From Tildeniella nuda ZEHNDER 1965/U140 (GTDB lineage: Bacteria > Cyanobacteriota > Cyanobacteriia > Leptolyngbyales > Leptolyngbyaceae), in contig JAHHIG010000006.1 in the NCBI GenBank assembly GCA_019358895.1, positions 124,001 through 188,000 on the forward strand: 64,000 nucleotides of DNA, in the 5' to 3' direction. Of this stretch, positions 5,856-13,311 are shown piece by piece (within the stretch, counting starts at the first letter, position 1; every line of letters starts with the position of its first letter). The translations under genes were made by a program, and so were the position numbers. The notes under the pieces were generated by a model. It was not told the origin of the DNA. It did not search any database and worked only from the letters and a program-made list of their open reading frames with translations.

Positions 5856-8465
5856 CTATCGTGCTGCTGTTGGCATTCCTAGAATGTCTTCAATCCGAGG
5901 CATCTCATCGAGCGGGATGACGCGCCCTTCGTCTGCAAAGTCGGCGATCTGGTCGAAGTTGAGGTAGCGGTAGAGGTCAGCAGCAAAGGGATCGATTTTT
6001 TTGGTGACGATCGCCATGTACTCCTCAACCGTAGGAATCTTGCCCAACAGCGCACACACTGCCGCCAGTTCTGCTGAGCCGAGGTAGACCTGAGCGCCTT
6101 TGCCCATGCGGTTGTTAAAGTTGCGCGTGGAGGTAGAGAAGACTGTGGTGCCATCTGCTACTCGTGCCTGATTGCCCATGCAGAGCGAGCATCCTGGCAT
6201 TTCGGTTCTGGCTCCAGCCGCAGCAAAGATGCCGTACATTCCCTCTTCGCGCAGTTGCTTTTCGTCCATGCGGGTTGGGGGACAGATCCAGAGGCGCACT
6301 TTGACGGGACCCGCGCCTTCGAGAATTTTGGCAGCGGCGCGGTAGTGCCCGATGTTGGTCATACAGGAGCCGATGAAGACTTCGTGCACGGGATCGCCTG
6401 CACAGTCAGACATCAGCTTCACGTTATCGGGATCGTTCGGTGCCGCCACGATCGGCTCCGTCACTTGATTTAGATCCACCTCAATGATTTCGGCATACTC
6501 TGCATCGGCATCGGCAGCCATCAGGCTTGGGGTTGCTAACCACTGTTCCATCTTGGCAACGCGACGCAGAATAGTACGCGCATCGCCGTAACCGCGTGCT
6601 GCCATGTTTTTCAGGAGAGCGACGTTCGATCGCAAATATTCTGCGACAGTATCCGTACTCAGTTTGATGGTTGAGCCAGCGCACGATCGTTCTGCGGTTG
6701 CATCCGTCAGTTCAAACGCTTGCTCCAGTTTCAGATCGGGCAATCCTTCCATCTCCATAATGCGACCAGAGAAAACATTCTGCTTGTTCTCTTTGGAGAC
6801 GTTCAGCAGTCCTCGTTGCATCGCAGCGTAAGGAATGGCGTTGACAATATCCCGCAGAGTTACACCCAGTTGCAGCGTCCCTTTAAAGCGCACCAGCACC
6901 GATTCGGGCATATCTAGCGGCATGGCACCGAGGGCAGCGGCAAAGGCAACCAGACCAGAGCCTGCTGGGAACGAAATGCCCAACGGAAAACGGGTATGAG
7001 AATCGCCACCTGTCCCCACAGTGTCAGGCAGCAGCATCCGGTTGAGCCAGGAATGAATAATGCCGTCACCGGGACGCAGTGCCACCCCCCCACGTTCATG
7101 CATAAAGTCGGGCAGCTCTTTGTGGGTCTTAATATCCACAGGTTTGGGATAGGCGGCTGTGTGGCAAAAGCTTTGCATGACCAGATCGGCGCTGAAGCCC
7201 AGGCAGGCAAGTTCTTTGAGTTCATCACGGGTCATCGGTCCGGTCGTATCTTGCGATCCAACCGTGGTCATGAGAGGTTCACAAGACGTACCGGGACGTA
7301 CACCAGGAAGTCCGCAAGCCTTCCCAACCATTTTCTGTGCCAGCGTGAAGCCTTTACCCGTGTCTGCTGGCAGAGTGGGACGGCGGAAGAGGGGGCTGTG
7401 TTCTAAACCCATGTCGGCGCGAATTTTATCGGTTAGGGTACGACCAATGAGCAGGGGAATGCGACCGCCTGCCTGAACTTCATCCAGGATGGTGTCGGGC
7501 TTGAGGGTGAATGTGGAAACAACAGTCCCTGCTTCATTGGTGATTTCGCCTTTGTAGGGGTAGATCGTGATGACATCGCCCGTTTCCAGTTGGGTGACAT
7601 CGCACTCGATCGGCAGCGCTCCCGAATCTTCAGCCGTATTGAAGAAGATCGGCGCGATCTTGCCACCCAGAATGTAACCACCTGTGCGTTTGTTGGGTAC
7701 GAAGGGGATATCATCACCAATGTGCCACAGCACCGAGTTGATGGCAGATTTGCGGGACGAACCTGTACCCACCACATCGCCGACGTAGGCAACCGGATGA
7801 CCCTTCTGTTTGAGGGCGGCGATCGTCTCCAGACTTCCTGGTTGCCGTGTTTCTAGCATCACCTGAGCGTGAAGGGGAATATCGGGACGGGTGGTGGCGT
7901 GGGGTGCAGGCGAGAGATCATCGGTGTTGGTTTCTCCCGGCACTTTAAACACTGTGACGGTGATCGCGGCGGCTAGCTCCAGGCGACTCGTGAACCAATC
8001 GGCATTTGCCCAGGAGTCTAAAACTTGCTTGGCGTAAGTGTTGCCATTTGCCGCTAGTTCTTGCACATCATGGAAGGCATCGTAGACCAGCAAAATTTTG
8101 CTCAATGCTTTGGTGGCAGTTGCGGCAATCTCGGCATCGGGGACTTGCAGCAGATCGATCAACGAATGAACGTTGTAGCCGCCCATCATTGTACCCAGAA
8201 GTTCAACCGCTTCTTTAGGCGATACAAGAGGGCTGGTCGTTTCACCTTTCGCGATCGCCGTCAAAAAGCCTGCCTTCACATACGCTGCTTGATCCACACC
8301 GGGCGGGACGCGATCGCGCAACAGCGTCAGCAAAAATTCTGCTTCTCCGACAGGTGGCTGCTTCAGTAATTCGCCCAATTCAGACATTTGGGTTGCGCTC
8401 AAGGGCAGGGGAGGCACCCCTTGAGCCGCGCGATCGGCAATGTGTTGGCGGTAGGATTCAAGCAT
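5856..8465 (-). CDS. acnB: Aconitate hydratase B (bifunctional, 2-methylisocitrate dehydratase)
   Basis: An 869-residue AcnB, the usual family length, which converts citrate to isocitrate in the TCA cycle with a labile [4Fe-4S] cluster. The N-terminal helical domain and swivel domain come first, as in AcnB. The cluster cysteines lie in the C-terminal half in GSCMTNIGHYR and PGCSLCMGNQA, near residues 710 and 770-773. AcnB is the standard aconitase in cyanobacteria and supplies 2-oxoglutarate, the signal read by NtcA, which is also encoded in this window. Its start lies 173 bases from the end of the Rieske oxygenase gene, so it may be separately transcribed. It converges with the GT4 gene ending at 5789. 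Confidence 0.96.
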   Translation of the reverse strand: MLESYRQHIADRAAQGVPPLPLSATQMSELGELLKQPPVGEAEFLLTLLRDRVPPGVDQAAYVKAGFLTAIAKGETTSPLVSPKEAVELLGTMMGGYNVHSLIDLLQVPDAEIAATATKALSKILLVYDAFHDVQELAANGNTYAKQVLDSWANADWFTSRLELAAAITVTVFKVPGETNTDDLSPAPHATTRPDIPLHAQVMLETRQPGSLETIAALKQKGHPVAYVGDVVGTGSSRKSAINSVLWHIGDDIPFVPNKRTGGYILGGKIAPIFFNTAEDSGALPIECDVTQLETGDVITIYPYKGEITNEAGTVVSTFTLKPDTILDEVQAGGRIPLLIGRTLTDKIRADMGLEHSPLFRRPTLPADTGKGFTLAQKMVGKACGLPGVRPGTSCEPLMTTVGSQDTTGPMTRDELKELACLGFSADLVMQSFCHTAAYPKPVDIKTHKELPDFMHERGGVALRPGDGIIHSWLNRMLLPDTVGTGGDSHTRFPLGISFPAGSGLVAFAAALGAMPLDMPESVLVRFKGTLQLGVTLRDIVNAIPYAAMQRGLLNVSKENKQNVFSGRIMEMEGLPDLKLEQAFELTDATAERSCAGSTIKLSTDTVAEYLRSNVALLKNMAARGYGDARTILRRVAKMEQWLATPSLMAADADAEYAEIIEVDLNQVTEPIVAAPNDPDNVKLMSDCAGDPVHEVFIGSCMTNIGHYRAAAKILEGAGPVKVRLWICPPTRMDEKQLREEGMYGIFAAAGARTEMPGCSLCMGNQARVADGTTVFSTSTRNFNNRMGKGAQVYLGSAELAAVCALLGKIPTVEEYMAIVTKKIDPFAADLYRYLNFDQIADFADEGRVIPLDEMPRIEDILGMPTAAR

Positions 8466-8638
8466 AGTTTTAGAGTCTCTATAAGGCGATAAGGATGATA
8501 TTTAAAGGCGTGAGCCAGCGTCGATCGCCAAGACTACTCTCGTCATGCCACTTTTGCAGTTGGGATTGATACGGACTGCATCAAAAAGTTTACAGGACAG
8601 CCATCTCTAGTCTATCGTTTGCCCTTAACGTTCATCGT

Positions 8639-9616
8639 TTAACCGCCGACGGTGCCAAAGCGCAAGCCCATCTCCTGTAGCCATTTGCGGTAGACGATTA
8701 GAGTGCGATCGCTATTCAAAAGCAAATCCGTTTGCGTATAGAGCGGCAGCAGCGCGGGTCGTTGCGCCTGAATGATGGGAATGTCCTGGTTCAGGATTTT
8801 TTCTTGCCACGCAATCAACTCAGCCGCAGGCGTTTTGTGATCATAGTTCAACGCGACCCACATCCAGAGTGTGCTTTTGAGCGCCGTGTGGGGCGTGACG
8901 CAGAAAAGAATTGAAAAGCGGGCACCCTCTGATTCTTTCGCCAGATAGGCTGTGAAGGGTCGGAGGGCGCGGTAGGTGTACGCAACGACATCACCGTGCC
9001 CCGTGCCGTAGGGATCGGGTTGGTAGACGCTTACACCTTTAGACAGTACGCCATCTGACTCGATCGTCGTGCCGTAGTCTTCAATGGTTGGGTAGGCAAT
9101 GTCGCCCAAAATGCCTTCGTGGACGAAGGGGAAGTGAGCGACATCGAGAAAGTTTTCGATCGCCCGCAGCCCACAGAGATCAAACGCGCCATAGGGTCCA
9201 CACAGCAGTTTGCGATAGGTGGGATCATCCCATTCTGGGAAGACGGGTATGTCTTGGGCTGGTTCACCGATCGCCACCCAAATCAGGTTGTAGCGCTCTT
9301 GAACATGGTAAGTCTTCACCTGAGCGCGTTTAGGGATGGTTTGCTCAGGATGCGCTGGAACGTGTACGCATTGACCGTCGCTGTTGTATGCCCAGCCATG
9401 ATACGGGCAAACCAACGTATCGTCATGCACCTGCCCGCCAGAGAGCTTCGTTCCTCGGTGAGCGCACAAATCGCGGCAGGCATGAAGTTCATCGCTCGAT
9501 CGCCATAACACGATGTCTTCTTCTAGCAAATGAACGGGCAACAGTGCGCCTTCTTGTACATCCTCCGATCGTGCCACTGGATGCCAATCGTTGAGCACAA
9601 CTGGATCATCAACCAT
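8639..9616 (-). CDS. Rieske [2Fe-2S] non-heme iron oxygenase, alpha-subunit type
   Basis: A 325-residue oxygenase. The Rieske domain ligates its cluster through CAHRG and CPYHGW (about residues 51-75). The catalytic iron site is in NFLDVAHFPFVHEG near residue 160, with the two histidines in the D-x2-H-x4-H arrangement. Such enzymes hydroxylate or demethylate small molecules and need a separate reductase, which is not present here. The ATG at 9616 has a good Shine-Dalgarno (AGGAAG). It lies only 29 bases after the guanine deaminase stop, so the two are probably co-transcribed. The architecture, including the ERYNLIWV strand and the C-terminal YRKWLQEM, recalls vanillate demethylase and methylxanthine N-demethylase oxygenases. 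A purine-derived substrate is my inference. Confidence 0.85.
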   Translation of the reverse strand: MVDDPVVLNDWHPVARSEDVQEGALLPVHLLEEDIVLWRSSDELHACRDLCAHRGTKLSGGQVHDDTLVCPYHGWAYNSDGQCVHVPAHPEQTIPKRAQVKTYHVQERYNLIWVAIGEPAQDIPVFPEWDDPTYRKLLCGPYGAFDLCGLRAIENFLDVAHFPFVHEGILGDIAYPTIEDYGTTIESDGVLSKGVSVYQPDPYGTGHGDVVAYTYRALRPFTAYLAKESEGARFSILFCVTPHTALKSTLWMWVALNYDHKTPAAELIAWQEKILNQDIPIIQAQRPALLPLYTQTDLLLNSDRTLIVYRKWLQEMGLRFGTVGG

Positions 9617-9645
9617 TTTGTCTTCCTCTGCTAAACGGCACCTAC

Positions 9646-10992
9646 TTACTTGTACGCCGCATTTTCTTTGTATGCCTCATTCTCATAGGCTAATTCGCCC
9701 ATGATGTAAGTCGCATGGATGACGCGATCGTCTCCCAGGATCATGGTGGCAAAGGTTTGATCAGCCAGTTCAGGTAAAGAGGGTGCGATCGCCGTTGGAT
9801 TGCGCCGTGCCATCAATGGAGTGGCTCTAGGGTTGAGCACAATGAAATCAGCTTCTTTACCTGGCTCAAAGTTGCCCAATGTGTCTTCTAGAGACAGTGC
9901 CCTCGCACCCCCTAATGTTGCTAGAAAAAGCGCCTGAAACGATGAGAGCGTTTCACCTCGCAGTTGAGTGACTTTGTAAGCCTCGCTGGTTGTCTGAAGC
10001 ATCGAAAAGCTTGTGCCACCGCCAACGTCAGTACCCAAGCCCACTTTCACAGGACAGTCCACCGACTTCGCTTTTTTCAGGTTGAACAAGCCGCTGCCCA
10101 GAAACAGGTTCGATGTGGGGCAAAAGGCGATCGCCGATCGTGCCTCCGACAACCGTTGAAACTCCGCATTGGTAAGCTGTACGCCGTGAGCGAAGACGGA
10201 TTTGGTGCCGACTAAACCAGCGCGATCGTACACATCTAAATAGCCATCGCTGTCAGGAAAAAGCTCTGCTACCAGCGCCACTTCATTCACATTCTCTGAG
10301 ATGTGAGTGTGCATATAGACATCGGGGAACTCAGCTAGCAGCTTACCCGCTAGCCGCAGTTGCTCATCGCTGGATGTCACCGCAAAGCGGGGTGTGATGG
10401 CATAGAGAAGGCGATCGTGCTTATGCCATTTCTCAATTAGTCGCTTGCTGTCTGCATAGGCACTTTCGGGCGTATCCGTCAAAAAGGCAGGCGCATTTCG
10501 ATCCATCAACACCTTGCCTGCAATCATGCGAAGGTGCCGACGACTCGCTTCCTCAAAAAACGCATCCACTGACTGGGGATAAACCGCTGCAAACACCAAC
10601 GCTGTCGTTGTGCCATGCTTCAGCAATTCATCCAAGAAAAAAGAGGCAATCTCTTGAGCATAGGCTTTGTCTTCAAATTTACCTTCGATGGGAAAGGTGT
10701 ACTTACTCAACCACTCCAGCAGTTGCTCGCCATACGCTGCAATCATCTCCGTTTGTGGAAAGTGAATGTGCGTATCAATAAACCCTGGCAGAATGAGCCG
10801 ATCGGGATACGTCATGACAGGAACATCTGCATAGGTTTGGTGCAGACTGTCATAAGTCCCCAATGCCTTGACTTTGCCATTCTCTAGAATCAGCAGTCCA
10901 TCCGAAAAGTACCGAACACTGTCCGCTTCTGAGACATAAAATGGATCATCAATAAAATCGAGAAAAGCACCACGAAACGCTTTAAGAGACAC
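9646..10992 (-). CDS. guaD: Guanine deaminase
   Basis: A 448-residue amidohydrolase that converts guanine to xanthine and ammonia. Zinc-binding and substrate motifs are visible in order: DTHIHFPQTEM near residue 73, HTHISENVNEV near 231, FAHGVQLTN near 270 and GLGTDVGGGTSFSML near 320. The combination HIHFPQTE with the GTDVGGG loop separates guanine deaminase from chlorohydrolase-like relatives. Translation probably starts at GTG 10992, with CAGG eight bases upstream. It is the first gene of a likely two-gene operon with the Rieske oxygenase, and is divergent from 5-hydroxyisourate hydrolase across a 208-base gap, which supports use of purines as a nitrogen source. Xanthine dehydrogenase and urate oxidase are not in the window. 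Confidence 0.93.
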   Translation of the reverse strand: MSLKAFRGAFLDFIDDPFYVSEADSVRYFSDGLLILENGKVKALGTYDSLHQTYADVPVMTYPDRLILPGFIDTHIHFPQTEMIAAYGEQLLEWLSKYTFPIEGKFEDKAYAQEIASFFLDELLKHGTTTALVFAAVYPQSVDAFFEEASRRHLRMIAGKVLMDRNAPAFLTDTPESAYADSKRLIEKWHKHDRLLYAITPRFAVTSSDEQLRLAGKLLAEFPDVYMHTHISENVNEVALVAELFPDSDGYLDVYDRAGLVGTKSVFAHGVQLTNAEFQRLSEARSAIAFCPTSNLFLGSGLFNLKKAKSVDCPVKVGLGTDVGGGTSFSMLQTTSEAYKVTQLRGETLSSFQALFLATLGGARALSLEDTLGNFEPGKEADFIVLNPRATPLMARRNPTAIAPSLPELADQTFATMILGDDRVIHATYIMGELAYENEAYKENAAYK

Positions 10993-11122
10993 GCTGATAA
11001 CCTGGGAGAATGAATAGATTACGGTGAATTCACGATTTACTCATAGAATCACACCGTTTCAGTCGCTGCGTATCGAAAGCAACAAAAACAGTCAAATAGC
11101 AAGAAAAGCCATAGCGTTGGCG

Positions 11123-11200
11123 CAGCCGTCAGCCGTCAGCCGTCACTTTTTAGCCTTTAGCTTTTAGCTTTTATTCTTTAGCCTTCACCCCTCACCTCCC
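11123..11200. repeat. Heptamer repeat array between guaD and uraH
   Basis: Three copies of CAGCCGT (11123-11143) are followed by degenerate TTTAGCCT/TTTAGCTT units and a pyrimidine-rich run that ends exactly at the uraH start codon. It is one of many short tandemly repeated repetitive (STRR) loci in the window. The native ribosome binding region of uraH appears to have been replaced by it. Confidence 0.8.
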
Positions 11201-11560
11201 ATGTCTGGCAAACTTACAACTCATGTTCTCGATACGGCTCGTGGCTGTCCGGCGGTTGGTGTAGCGATCGCCCTGTGGTCGATCGCGCCATCCGGTGAGA
11301 AAACCCTGCTAAAAACCGTATATACCAACGCAGATGGGCGCACAGACAGCCCCCTGTTGGCTAATGGCGCACTACAAGTGGGTGTCTATGAGCTGGCTTT
11401 TAGCGTGGGAGAGTACTTTGCTCAACACCTTCAAGACTTGCCTACACCACCGTTCTTAAACGAGATTCCCATCCAATTTGGCATTGCTGATCCGACCGTT
11501 CATTATCATGTGCCGCTCTTAGCTTCGCCCTGGTCATATAGCACATATCGAGGGAGTTAA
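11201..11560 (+). CDS. uraH: 5-Hydroxyisourate hydrolase (transthyretin-like)
   Basis: A 119-residue enzyme that hydrolyses 5-hydroxyisourate, the product of urate oxidase, to OHCU in the urate-to-allantoin pathway. The N-terminal LTTHVLDTARGCPAVGV and the C-terminal signature SPWSYSTYRGS contain the active-site His, Arg and the terminal YRGS that define HIU hydrolases as opposed to transthyretin. The length is normal for the family. Its ATG follows a pyrimidine-rich repeat (CACCCCTCACCTCCC) with no Shine-Dalgarno. It is divergent from guaD, so both probably belong to one purine degradation locus. No urate oxidase or OHCU decarboxylase gene is visible nearby, so the rest of the pathway must be elsewhere. 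Confidence 0.94.
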   Translation: MSGKLTTHVLDTARGCPAVGVAIALWSIAPSGEKTLLKTVYTNADGRTDSPLLANGALQVGVYELAFSVGEYFAQHLQDLPTPPFLNEIPIQFGIADPTVHYHVPLLASPWSYSTYRGS

Positions 11561-11896
11561 CGGTCAAGCGGTCAGCGGATTCATTCAGAGAAGCAAGCTG
11601 TAGCAGTCAACGGATGCTCACTTCCCAAAAGCAGCTCTCTATCTTTCGATTGACAATTAACCACCACGAGTAAGCGGCTTCCTGTTCATTAAGCTTGCAC
11701 GAAGAATACGCTTCTGAAGTCGCTCACTAGTTCTACCGTTTCTACGCTAGACTACAAAGGCTGCCGCCACAGCACTCAAATCACTGTGCTATAGTTTGCC
11801 TACAGGATTATCTTCGGTCGTGTAATTCGTTTTTGTTCATTGACAAGCGTTTCTCCGGATGTAACTCTCACACACTCTGAAATTTGGAGACAATTC
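11561..11896. other. Leader region of the RNA-binding protein gene
   Basis: No credible gene is seen here. The first 20 bases contain one GCGGTCA-like repeat unit. Two TTGACA hexamers occur (11650-11655 and 11840-11845); the first lacks a good partner, and the second is followed 17 bases later only by AACTCT. The region probably carries the promoter and long leader of the downstream rbp gene. Confidence 0.45.
11787..11795 (+). promoter_or_regulatory. Candidate extended -10 element for rbp
   Basis: TGCTATAGT fits an extended -10 box (TGnTATAAT-like). A start near 11802 would give an untranslated leader of about 95 bases before the rbp ATG. Long leaders are known for cold-inducible cyanobacterial rbp genes. 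There is no good -35 partner, so this is a weak assignment. Confidence 0.35.
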
Positions 11897-12220
11897 ATGT
11901 CAATTTATGTTGGTAACCTTTCGTACCAGGTTACTCAGGACGACCTTAAGCAAGCTTTTGAAGAGTACGGTACCGTTAATCGAGTTCAGCTTCCCACCGA
12001 TCGCGAAACAGGTCGTCTGCGTGGATTTGCCTTCGTAGAAATGGGCACCGAAGAAGAAGAAGCGGCTGCTATCGAAGCACTGGATGGTGCTGAGTGGATG
12101 GGACGCGATTTGAAAGTCAACAAAGCAAAACCCCGTGAAGAGCGTGGTTCCTCTGGTGGCTGGGGTGGTAACAATCGTGGCGGTGGCGGTGGTGGCGGTG
12201 GTGGTGGTCGCCGCTATTAA
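11897..12220 (+). CDS. RRM-type RNA-binding protein (cyanobacterial Rbp, glycine-rich tail)
   Basis: A 107-residue protein with one RNA recognition motif (residues 1-82) and a glycine-rich tail. RNP2 is IYVGNL (residues 3-8) and RNP1 is RGFAFVEM (about 42-49). The tail is nearly all glycine with Arg, Asn and Trp. In cyanobacteria such proteins are often cold-induced and bind RNA. I start at ATG 11897 because GGAG (11886-11889) is seven bases upstream; a longer frame from 11840 lacks such support and adds a non-RRM extension. The rpsU gene follows after 238 bases, the rbp-rpsU order known in several cyanobacteria, which supports the assignment. Confidence 0.95.
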
Positions 12221-12251
12221 GGTACGCGTTGCCTTAACCTTAACTTTCTAG

Positions 12252-12295
12252 AGTCTCTGGCAGATGAAAGCGACTGTTCTACTCTGTCAGAGACT
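12252..12295 (+). promoter_or_regulatory. Inverted repeat (hairpin) between rbp and rpsU
   Basis: AGTCTCTGGCAGA (12252-12264) pairs with TCTGTCAGAGACT (12283-12295), with one bulged base in a 12-13 bp stem. No T-run follows directly, so it is not a classical terminator. It may partly terminate rbp transcripts or stabilise a processed rbp-rpsU message. Confidence 0.5.
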
Positions 12296-12458
12296 TCTCA
12301 CATTGCATCTGTTTTTAGCTTTTACACGCATCACTAAGCTGTGAACTGAACGATACTACTGCTACAGGTCGAAAGCTGCCAGCCTGTGAAACCTTGTACC
12401 TTCAGTCCTTATCTAAGTTCCAGTAGGTTGCAACAACCTGTTCAATTGGAGGACAAGC

Positions 12459-12647
12459 ATGACCCAAATAGTCGTTGGTGAGAACGAAGGCATTGAATCC
12501 GCTTTGCGCCGCTTCAAGCGCCAGGTTTCAAAGGCAGGCATTTTTCAAGACATGCGGAAAAAGCGCCACTTTGAAACTCCTTTAGAGAAAGAGAAGCGGA
12601 AGGCGATCGCCAAGCACAAGCAACGTAGACAGCGCTCTCGTTACTGA
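12459..12647 (+). CDS. rpsU: 30S ribosomal protein S21
   Basis: A 62-residue basic protein with the S21 pattern: [18 protein letters not shown] at the N-terminus, then [20 protein letters not shown] and a basic tail. S21 joins the small subunit near the anti-Shine-Dalgarno region and assists initiation. A strong GGAGGA lies five bases before the ATG. It follows the RRM protein gene as in other cyanobacteria, where both have been linked to the cold response. Two GCGATCGC-like sites occur in or beside it, as across the window. There is little doubt about the assignment. Confidence 0.97.
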
Positions 12648-13311
12648 TGAAGCTTGCAGAACCGCAGTCTATTGAAGTAACCATGAGCGTATGCGCTTTG
12701 CTTAGTTAAAAACCATACATTGCCAAGCTTAAGTGTTTCTGGGCTAGCGGCAGCAAGAAAAGGGCAACGATTTAGCAAAAATGCCTTTAACGGTTTTGGT
12801 TAGAGGGGATAGGAAAGGGGCTGCAACTGCTACAATCAATTCCCTTCTACCAGCGCTTAAGTTGCTGTTCATTTTGAAGAGTGTGCGATCATTACTGGTC
12901 AAAGTTATACGTCTTAGCTACAGGTATGCTTGAAGTCTGAGCAATGTGGAGAGCAAAGCTTCAAGCATCAACCTCTACACAGTGTAACGACTTGAATTTT
13001 AGTAAGCAAAGTAGTTAAGCAACTGGGTTGCGTTGCACAGCTATCGTCGATTTCTTCGTTCTGCATAGTATTAAATATCCTTGCAATTCATTTCAGCCCA
13101 TTTAAACTCATAGTTTTCGCTTTGAAGCCAGGTATGAAATAACCAGCCAACGCTTTAAGAACGATGACTGATGCAGAGACAAGCAAGCTTGCACAGCTTT
13201 ATCTACTTTTTATTGCTAACTGTCATTGATCACCTACCAGTATCCGCTTGCCGTCCAGCAGTATATCAAGTTAATAGTCTACAACCAATTTTATAGAGGC
13301 ATAGGTAACGT
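12648..13311. other. 664-base gap with one strong hairpin
   Basis: No convincing gene, tRNA or known RNA is seen. It holds the perfect inverted repeat at 12926-12968 and a 10-base palindrome GCAAGCTTGC near 13187. The composition is more AT-rich than the neighbouring genes. It could contain a long leader for the gene at 13312 or a small RNA. Confidence 0.45.
12926..12968. repeat. Perfect 10-base inverted repeat
   Basis: ATGCTTGAAG (12926-12935) and CTTCAAGCAT (12959-12968) are exact reverse complements separated by 23 bases. No T-run follows on either strand. It could be the stem of a small RNA or of a leader structure. Confidence 0.6.

Follow-up and report, generated by a model that had tools for sequence, protein, structure and literature searches.

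Rieske oxygenases that act on purines are known from enterobacteria and from caffeine degraders. In the former, HpxD is a purine-oxidising Rieske enzyme (as stated in an excerpt of PMC7373994), and in the latter the Ndm enzymes act on purines (likewise in an excerpt, PMC10380055). Here we describe a Rieske non-heme iron oxygenase of the cyanobacterium Tildeniella nuda ZEHNDER 1965/U140. Its gene follows guaD, the gene for guanine deaminase, in a 64,000-nucleotide stretch of contig JAHHIG010000006.1 (positions 124,001 to 188,000, forward strand; referred to simply as the window). The protein belongs to a clade, named R2, whose members are probably purine oxygenases working beside guanine deaminase and xanthine dehydrogenase (XDH), as judged from sequence and gene context.

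The Rieske gene (positions 8639–9616, minus strand) encodes 325 amino acids from an ATG start, and was delimited from the list of open reading frames (ORFs) and from matches to PF00355 and PF19112. It is preceded by guaD (9646–10992, minus strand; 448 amino acids, GTG start), whose product scored 581 bits with TIGR02967 against a cut-off of 375, and 658 with PRK09228 against 351. The gap between the two genes (9617–9645, minus strand) holds a Shine-Dalgarno-like AGAGGAAG upstream of the Rieske ATG. The gene for 5-hydroxyisourate hydrolase, uraH (11201–11560, plus strand; 119 amino acids; TIGR02962, 127 bits against 87), is divergent to the pair. An earlier note on this DNA, made from the letters alone, had placed the Rieske ATG 29 bases past the guaD stop, with a good Shine-Dalgarno, and had described uraH as divergent; both statements were borne out.

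The window protein is a Rieske non-heme iron oxygenase of the VanA_C type. It matched PF00355 (88 bits) and the VanA_C family PF19112 (71 bits), both above cut-off. The [2Fe-2S] ligands (Rieske motif C51-x-H53...C70-x2-H73), the iron triad (H161, H166, D278) and the bridging residue D158 are all intact. The closest solved structures were GxtA/SxtDIOX (E 6e-76) and SxtT (E 1e-73), followed by NdmA/NdmB (E 1e-40 to 8e-36) and then by dicamba monooxygenase. The same ranking was obtained when a predicted model was compared with known structures (SxtT/GxtA, Z 31–32; NdmA/NdmB, Z 28–29). The mean predicted local distance difference test (pLDDT) score of this model was 77.7, with low values at residues ~162–171, a stretch containing one iron ligand. 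The scores with curated models for betaine and aromatic-ring oxygenases fell far short of the cut-offs (glycine betaine 37.6 bits against a cut-off of 670, benzoate 27.8 against 781, anthranilate 29.5 against 672). The chlorophyll oxygenase Pfam family gave no match at E<=0.001, and the trees described below took in no chlorophyll oxygenase. The likeness seen earlier to demethylases, the methylxanthine type included, agrees with the nearest characterised relatives, namely SxtT/GxtA, NdmA/NdmB and HpxD.

In all the genomes of the genus that were compared (7/7, that of the window included), guaD was followed by the Rieske gene, with Rieske identities of 79–100% and a gap of 13–185 bases in the six relatives. 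The divergent uraH was also present in 7/7. Purifying selection acts on the Rieske gene, the ratio of nonsynonymous to synonymous substitution rates (dN/dS) being 0.05–0.075 against five relatives. Hence, from the order kept throughout the genus and the selection on the gene, the arrangement is more than chance. A second case of the pair was found in another genus (genome G355), where guaD is followed by a clade R2 Rieske gene (46% identity), then by a flavin adenine dinucleotide (FAD)-subunit gene and a molybdenum-hydroxylase gene. In G376, which belongs to the window's genus, an FAD-subunit gene of the same type adjoins uraH, with the molybdenum subunit on a different contig. When 292 genomes of the phylum were searched, relatives of the window Rieske protein (E<=1e-40) were found in 17, and guaD of this type (E<=1e-80) in 16.

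In the trees, the relatives of the window protein split into three clades, R1, R2 and R3. A first tree contained a distant Rieske outgroup from the window genome and showed a 4.3-long branch inside R2, and it was rebuilt without that outgroup. The final tree had 60 rows (48 hand-thinned from the other 97 of the first tree, and 12 new), and the partial R2 of G376 (241 amino acids) was excluded from the trees and from the pocket counts given below. The window protein fell in R2 (26-row clade, 100/98). R1 (100/100) took in the proteins annotated as HpxD in Klebsiella, Pantoea and Erwinia, with the window row outside, and NdmA and NdmB formed their own clade (100/99), again with the window protein outside. 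Two Rieske proteins of an sxt-like cluster in G153 (L042) lie inside the wider R2 clade (100/98). Gene names used here without a family assignment (aconitase, RelE-like, NRPS-like, P450-like and members of the sxt-like cluster) were given by eye.

The residue at position −7 from the iron ligand Asp278, which is Gln271 in the window protein, was fixed within each clade. It was Gln in 40/40 R2 rows (6 genus-type and 34 others; the two sxt-cluster rows, with Phe/Tyr, are kept apart), Asn in 36/36 R1 rows, and Asp in 13/13 R3 and R3-like rows. Rows added later had Asn in five HpxD-type, Gln in five R2-type and Asp in a Variovorax R3-type protein. The HpxD signature of Asn/Phe at −7/−3 was present in 41/41 R1/HpxD-type rows, whereas the window protein has Gln/Leu instead, as do 6/6 genus-type R2 rows. 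NdmA has Asn at −7 and Phe at −3, and NdmB has Gln and Leu, the same pair as Gln271/Leu275. Two NdmA sequences of the PDB differ at −7 and −3 within the aligned stretch, and the titles of 6icp and 6icq name an ‘NdmA QL mutant’ together with caffeine or theobromine. In SxtT the substrate is contacted by Gln226, Asp239 and Tyr273; the first two touch its guanidinium and Tyr273 hydrogen-bonds it (according to an excerpt of PMC7293229). These residues correspond to Ala223, Ile236 and Gln271 of the window protein in the GxtA/SxtT alignment; Tyr273 aligns with Gln271 in the GxtA and multiple alignments, while a gap of one residue falls at this place in the pairwise SxtT alignment. The clade-fixed residue, the positions of the NdmA QL mutant and the Tyr273 contact together argue that position −7 reads the substrate, and that R2 would grip its substrate unlike HpxD. 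Q271 is thus the probable substrate-reading residue.

We examined the neighbours of R2 in the order of the window genome. Apart from the genus type, the search gave 24 places with R2 (referred to as R2b), of which 20 were examined (L030, L035, L247–L264), the others being in G344 (twice), G354 and G377. One or more genes of a Bmp/PnrA-type ATP-binding cassette (ABC) transporter (Bmp PF02608/ABC/BPD_transp_2) directly adjoined R2b at 11/20 loci, and guaD at 1/20. Bmp-type ABC transporters carry purine nucleosides. On plasmid pLBX of Leptolyngbya boryana, genes for a BMP protein, an ATPase and two permeases precede R2 in that order, and a sensor kinase gene follows it. In G328, R2 lies near a Bmp-type permease and a TRZ/ATZ-like amidohydrolase, the latter under the NCBIfam cut-offs. 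A plasmid of Niallia taxi (Bacillota) carries a permease gene and, directly after it, an R2-type gene (38.6% identity), with guanine deaminase (423 bits against a cut-off of 375) one gene further; the permease scored 370 bits with the PbuX model, under the cut-off of 414, and 114 with NCS2_1, above the cut-off of 40. A very large ORF was seen 3′ of the Bmp-transporter and R2 genes at seven loci (L253:9517-14880; L030, L248, L249, L251, L255, L263). A scan of the one in L253 showed protein-kinase, AAA, GAF and histidine-kinase domains; such an ORF might sense the transported compound.

The earlier note had raised the possibility that the Rieske protein replaces xanthine oxidation. The window genome itself carries, on contig C32, xdhA (TIGR02963, 499.5 against 467) and xdhB (TIGR02965, 1018 against 849.5), near a gene that is xdhC-like by eye, and it encodes an R1 (HpxD-type) Rieske protein on contig C27. 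Two short ORFs, one of them RelE-like by eye, separate xdhA and xdhB (L098:12678-13551). Among 42 genomes of the order, R2 was found in 27, guaD in 36 and XDH of the TIGR02965 type in 25 (24 above the cut-off, and G349, whose gene is split between contigs). XDH was present in 19/27 R2 genomes against 6/15 of the others (p 0.1). When a second molybdenum hydroxylase (XDH2), sought in the order only as weaker hits of the XDH profile search, was included, the counts were 23/27 against 6/15 (p 0.0046); these p values, like the one for R3 below, ignore shared ancestry and are guides only. Three of the four R2 genomes without XDH or XDH2 have R1/HpxD (G289, G354, G368), and G373, a fragmented assembly of ~600 contigs, is the sole R2 genome of the order without XDH, XDH2 or R1. 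Since XDH, XDH2 or HpxD accompanies R2 in 26/27 genomes, R2 is joined in nearly every case by another enzyme that probably oxidises xanthine. The role of an XDH replacement was therefore rejected for R2.

In XDH2 a 2Fe-2S domain is fused to the molybdenum subunit, and in several cases the FAD subunit is a protein of its own; XDH2 scores under the TIGR02965 cut-off. Its genes are embedded in purine clusters of several cyanobacteria (L258:8539-12827, L246:5689-6489, L370:2777-4921, L106:5898-8718). The run in G332 is HpxO, uraH, XDH2, uraD and guaD, and from this position between uraH and uraD XDH2 is plausibly a xanthine dehydrogenase.

Unlike the window gene, the core of clade R3 shows the pattern of an enzyme that stands in for XDH. 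In a set of 49 guaD-bearing cyanobacteria, this core was found in 0/28 XDH-positive genomes (XDH2 included) against 9/21 XDH-negative ones (p 0.00014), and it never co-occurred with R1. In this table XDH-positive means PF02738 at E<2e-80 (G332 and G298 carry the XDH2 type); G292, G302 and G314, with weaker PF02738 hits only, were counted as negative. Rieske classes were taken only from hits at E<=1e-30 to R1 and assigned on identity to R1, on tree position or on the best BLASTX class. In G286, R3 sits between an HpxO gene (NF033623, 602 against a cut-off of 500) and guaD (L072:6551-10551); it adjoins uraH in G307 and G323, and in G314 it stands among HpxO, uraH and uraD. Besides L072, the loci L303, L305 and L309 show R3-core genes in such company. 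The R3 core is hence a strong candidate for hydroxylating xanthine without molybdenum, and by clade it is not HpxD. R3-like rows outside the core do co-occur with XDH, and two of these belong to the window genome (L100:7851-10270, contig C32; L101:7212-8219, contig C36; 56–57% identity to the R3 of G286). One of the two genes directly precedes a TRZ/ATZ-type amidohydrolase gene. A tandem R3-like pair was seen near an NMT1-type transporter in G005 (L048). For the R3-like proteins of G005 and of the window genome the two trees differ: the first put them inside R3, the rebuilt one outside the R3 core.

R1 was also considered as an XDH replacement and rejected, there being no anticorrelation in the cyanobacteria (10/28 XDH-positive against 7/21 XDH-negative genomes, p 1). 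In Acinetobacter, R1 was positively associated with XDH (6/13 against 0/17, p 0.003), all six XDH-positive genomes being in the R1-guaD set; here 30 of 31 genomes, all but that of L178, were searched, and R1 means R1 within the guaD locus only. R1 adjoins guaD in the cyanobacteria G185, G289 and Phormidesmis priestleyi Ana. In Acinetobacter an R1 gene was seen immediately 5′ of guaD in 13/31 guaD loci (L158, L159, L161, L164, L166–L170, L173, L174, L176, L181). The HpxO of Acinetobacter L300 was set aside, the 19-kb stretch having no recognised Rieske gene, and a search for HpxO (E<=1e-150) in 274 genomes from the class of G388 gave two hits, neither near a recognised Rieske gene.

Taken together, the guaD-R2 pair, the linkage to Bmp transporters, the NCS2 permease and guanine deaminase of Niallia taxi, and the invariant Q271 point to a purine substrate. 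The purine substrate proposed in the earlier note is accordingly the one we favour, also in view of the nearest relatives of the protein. That note had also spoken of a possible unknown step; this holds for clade R2, but not for the kind of enzyme, a purine-oxidising Rieske enzyme (HpxD) being already known. We prefer a reading in which R2 feeds xanthine oxidation by GuaD and XDH, because R2 goes with XDH or XDH2 and because, in G355, it is followed by molybdenum-hydroxylase genes, as expected of a feeder. If the substrate is a purine, oxidative N-demethylation of N-methylated guanine or xanthine would be our first, still tentative choice; C-hydroxylation of an unmodified purine is conceivable and comes second, and another purine modification would be rather unlikely.

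By this reading R2 would form a trimer, as in its solved relatives. Ferredoxin can act as electron donor, and electrons would enter the [2Fe-2S] cluster (C51/H53/C70/H73) probably from photosynthetic ferredoxin, as no reductase gene lies immediately beside the window Rieske gene. Through D158 they would reach the iron of the adjacent subunit (H161/H166/D278). There O2 would be activated, and the purine, held by the Q271 amide, would be oxidised. Methylated purines arise from nucleic-acid turnover, and in the favoured chemistry N-methylated guanine or xanthine would yield guanine or xanthine and formaldehyde. The product would then go to GuaD, xanthine dehydrogenase, urate oxidation and UraH.

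Several observations weigh against the purine reading. Five of the 27 R2 genomes of the order lack guaD, with no enrichment of guaD in R2 genomes (22/27 against 14/15); in a draw across the phylum guaD was present in just 3/12 R2 genomes (p 0.022). R1 genomes of that draw all had it (6/6). No purine-type neighbour was seen at 8/20 R2b loci of the order, and none of the eight loci studied in other parts of the phylum (L032, L034, L036–L041; the sxt-like locus and G328 are outside this count) had a purine gene beside R2. One Bmp protein had as its best NCBIfam match a putative B6-transporter family (131.6 against a cut-off of 400). Natural-product clusters contain, or are close to, some R2 relatives (L039, L042; Mycetohabitans L312), so purine catabolism does not characterise the whole clade. 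The molybdenum-subunit frame in G355 is split over two reading frames, and that copy may be broken. In the tree R2 is also nearer to HpxD (46-row clade, 98/90) than to NdmA/B, which does not speak for demethylation. As for the pocket, Thr occupies −7 in a second row of Pantoea At-9b that is sister to R2, and the −3 residue is variable in R2 outside the genus. The −7/−3 pair is not predictive of the reaction and cannot decide between demethylation and hydroxylation, since HpxD, which hydroxylates, and NdmA, which demethylates, share Asn/Phe.

The alternative that survives best is that R2 is a second, HpxD-like xanthine or hypoxanthine hydroxylase that backs up XDH, for example when molybdenum is scarce. 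It overlaps the hydroxylation branch of our own reading, and we hold it to be unlikely. The position on the HpxD side of the tree speaks for it, as does the fact that xanthine, the product of GuaD, is the substrate of HpxD. Coexistence with XDH is no bar to such a role, as HpxD-type R1 itself coexists with XDH in 10/17 R1 genomes of the 49 cyanobacteria and in 6/13 R1-guaD Acinetobacter. However, HpxD groups with R1 in a separate clade and differs from R2 at −7/−3, the window genome is already equipped with XDH and R1, and only the fragmented G373 (1/27) has R2 without XDH, XDH2 or R1.

It is improbable that R2 is a tailoring hydroxylase of natural products, like SxtT/GxtA, that lies beside guaD by chance. 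SxtT and GxtA are indeed the closest solved structures by both E and Z values, and some R2 relatives lie near genes that are nonribosomal-peptide-synthetase-like (NRPS-like), cytochrome P450-like (P450-like) or of the SidA/IucD type (the names at L039 being given by eye). In the window, however, the immediate neighbours of the Rieske gene are guaD, uraH and an ORF (5856–8465, minus strand, from the ORF list) 3′ of it that we take to be aconitase-like; none of these neighbours is an sxt-type biosynthetic gene, farther ORFs being outside the scan. The guaD-R2 order is kept throughout the genus and again in G355 with molybdenum-hydroxylase genes, and all three SxtT contact residues are replaced. 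Under a last alternative, guaD and R2 would be neighbours by inherited coincidence only, and the substrate of R2 would be some unrelated small molecule. This would suit the R2 genomes without guaD (5/27 in the order, 9/12 in the phylum draw) and the loci without purine neighbours, but it is very doubtful: in two separate R2 lineages guaD adjoins R2, on a Bacillota plasmid it is nearby, and the Bmp linkage recurs.

The aconitase-like ORF is likewise 3′ of the Rieske gene in L109, L110, L111 and L245, and is probably outside the purine unit. The intergenic region between guaD and uraH (10993–11200, 208 bases) was covered by Rfam and promoter scans. Six promoter-like matches were found in 8400–11900, against a shuffle mean of 2.9 (standard deviation 1.9), with none within 10993–11200. 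An Rfam scan of 7000–13000 at E<=1 gave no match, the xanthine NMT1 riboswitch motif included, and no gathering-score match was found in eight loci; a riboswitch near the genes was hence rejected.

If R2 does act on modified purines, purine-degradation annotation has missed a step, and the transporter operon on the Leptolyngbya boryana plasmid makes R2 testable. Among the matches listed in a literature search that left most subscription journals outside, no paper dealt with a guaD-linked Rieske oxygenase, the R2 clade or the R2-Bmp linkage, and none on the NdmA mutants came up. The core of saxitoxin is a reduced purine. A bolder view, which we consider unlikely, is that R2 is a new clade of purine-modifying Rieske enzymes, possibly methylpurine N-demethylases, served by Bmp transporters and feeding GuaD/XDH, from which the sxt Rieske oxygenases were recruited. 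The clade may bear on the unsettled origin of sxtT/sxtH, which an excerpt of a 2009 paper called ‘unknown’ (PMC2684587).

Compared with known systems, R2 resembles HpxD (hpxDE of Klebsiella, Pantoea and Erwinia, annotated ‘molybdenum cofactor-independent xanthine hydroxylase’) as a VanA-type Rieske protein in purine breakdown; hpxD lies with uraH, uraD and hpxO in 2/3 records viewed. It differs in its sequence (30–33% identity), in its clade, and in having Gln/Leu for Asn/Phe. A PDR/VanB reductase gene comes next after hpxD in the Pantoea and Erwinia records, whereas the window R2 has no such follower, and no hpxE-type reductase, hpxO or hpxR is among its immediate neighbours. NdmA and NdmB of Pseudomonas putida CBB5 have the same fold and layout as R2, and NdmB shares its Gln/Leu, but they are only 26–30% identical to it and form a clade of their own. 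SxtT and GxtA (SxtDIOX) are closer, at 38–39% identity, with the two sxt-like-cluster rows of G153 in the wider R2 clade; they differ in having Phe/Tyr at −7, and the guanidinium-contacting Gln226/Asp239 of SxtT are Ala/Ile in the window protein. The R3 core, like R2, is linked to purine genes (HpxO, uraH, uraD or guaD), but it has Asp at −7 and, within the 49 genomes, is confined to those lacking XDH, whereas R2 has Gln and is mostly found with XDH. The cyanobacteria thus hold three Rieske clades linked to purine genes, R1/HpxD, R2 and R3, each with its own fixed residue at −7 (Asn, Gln and Asp, respectively).

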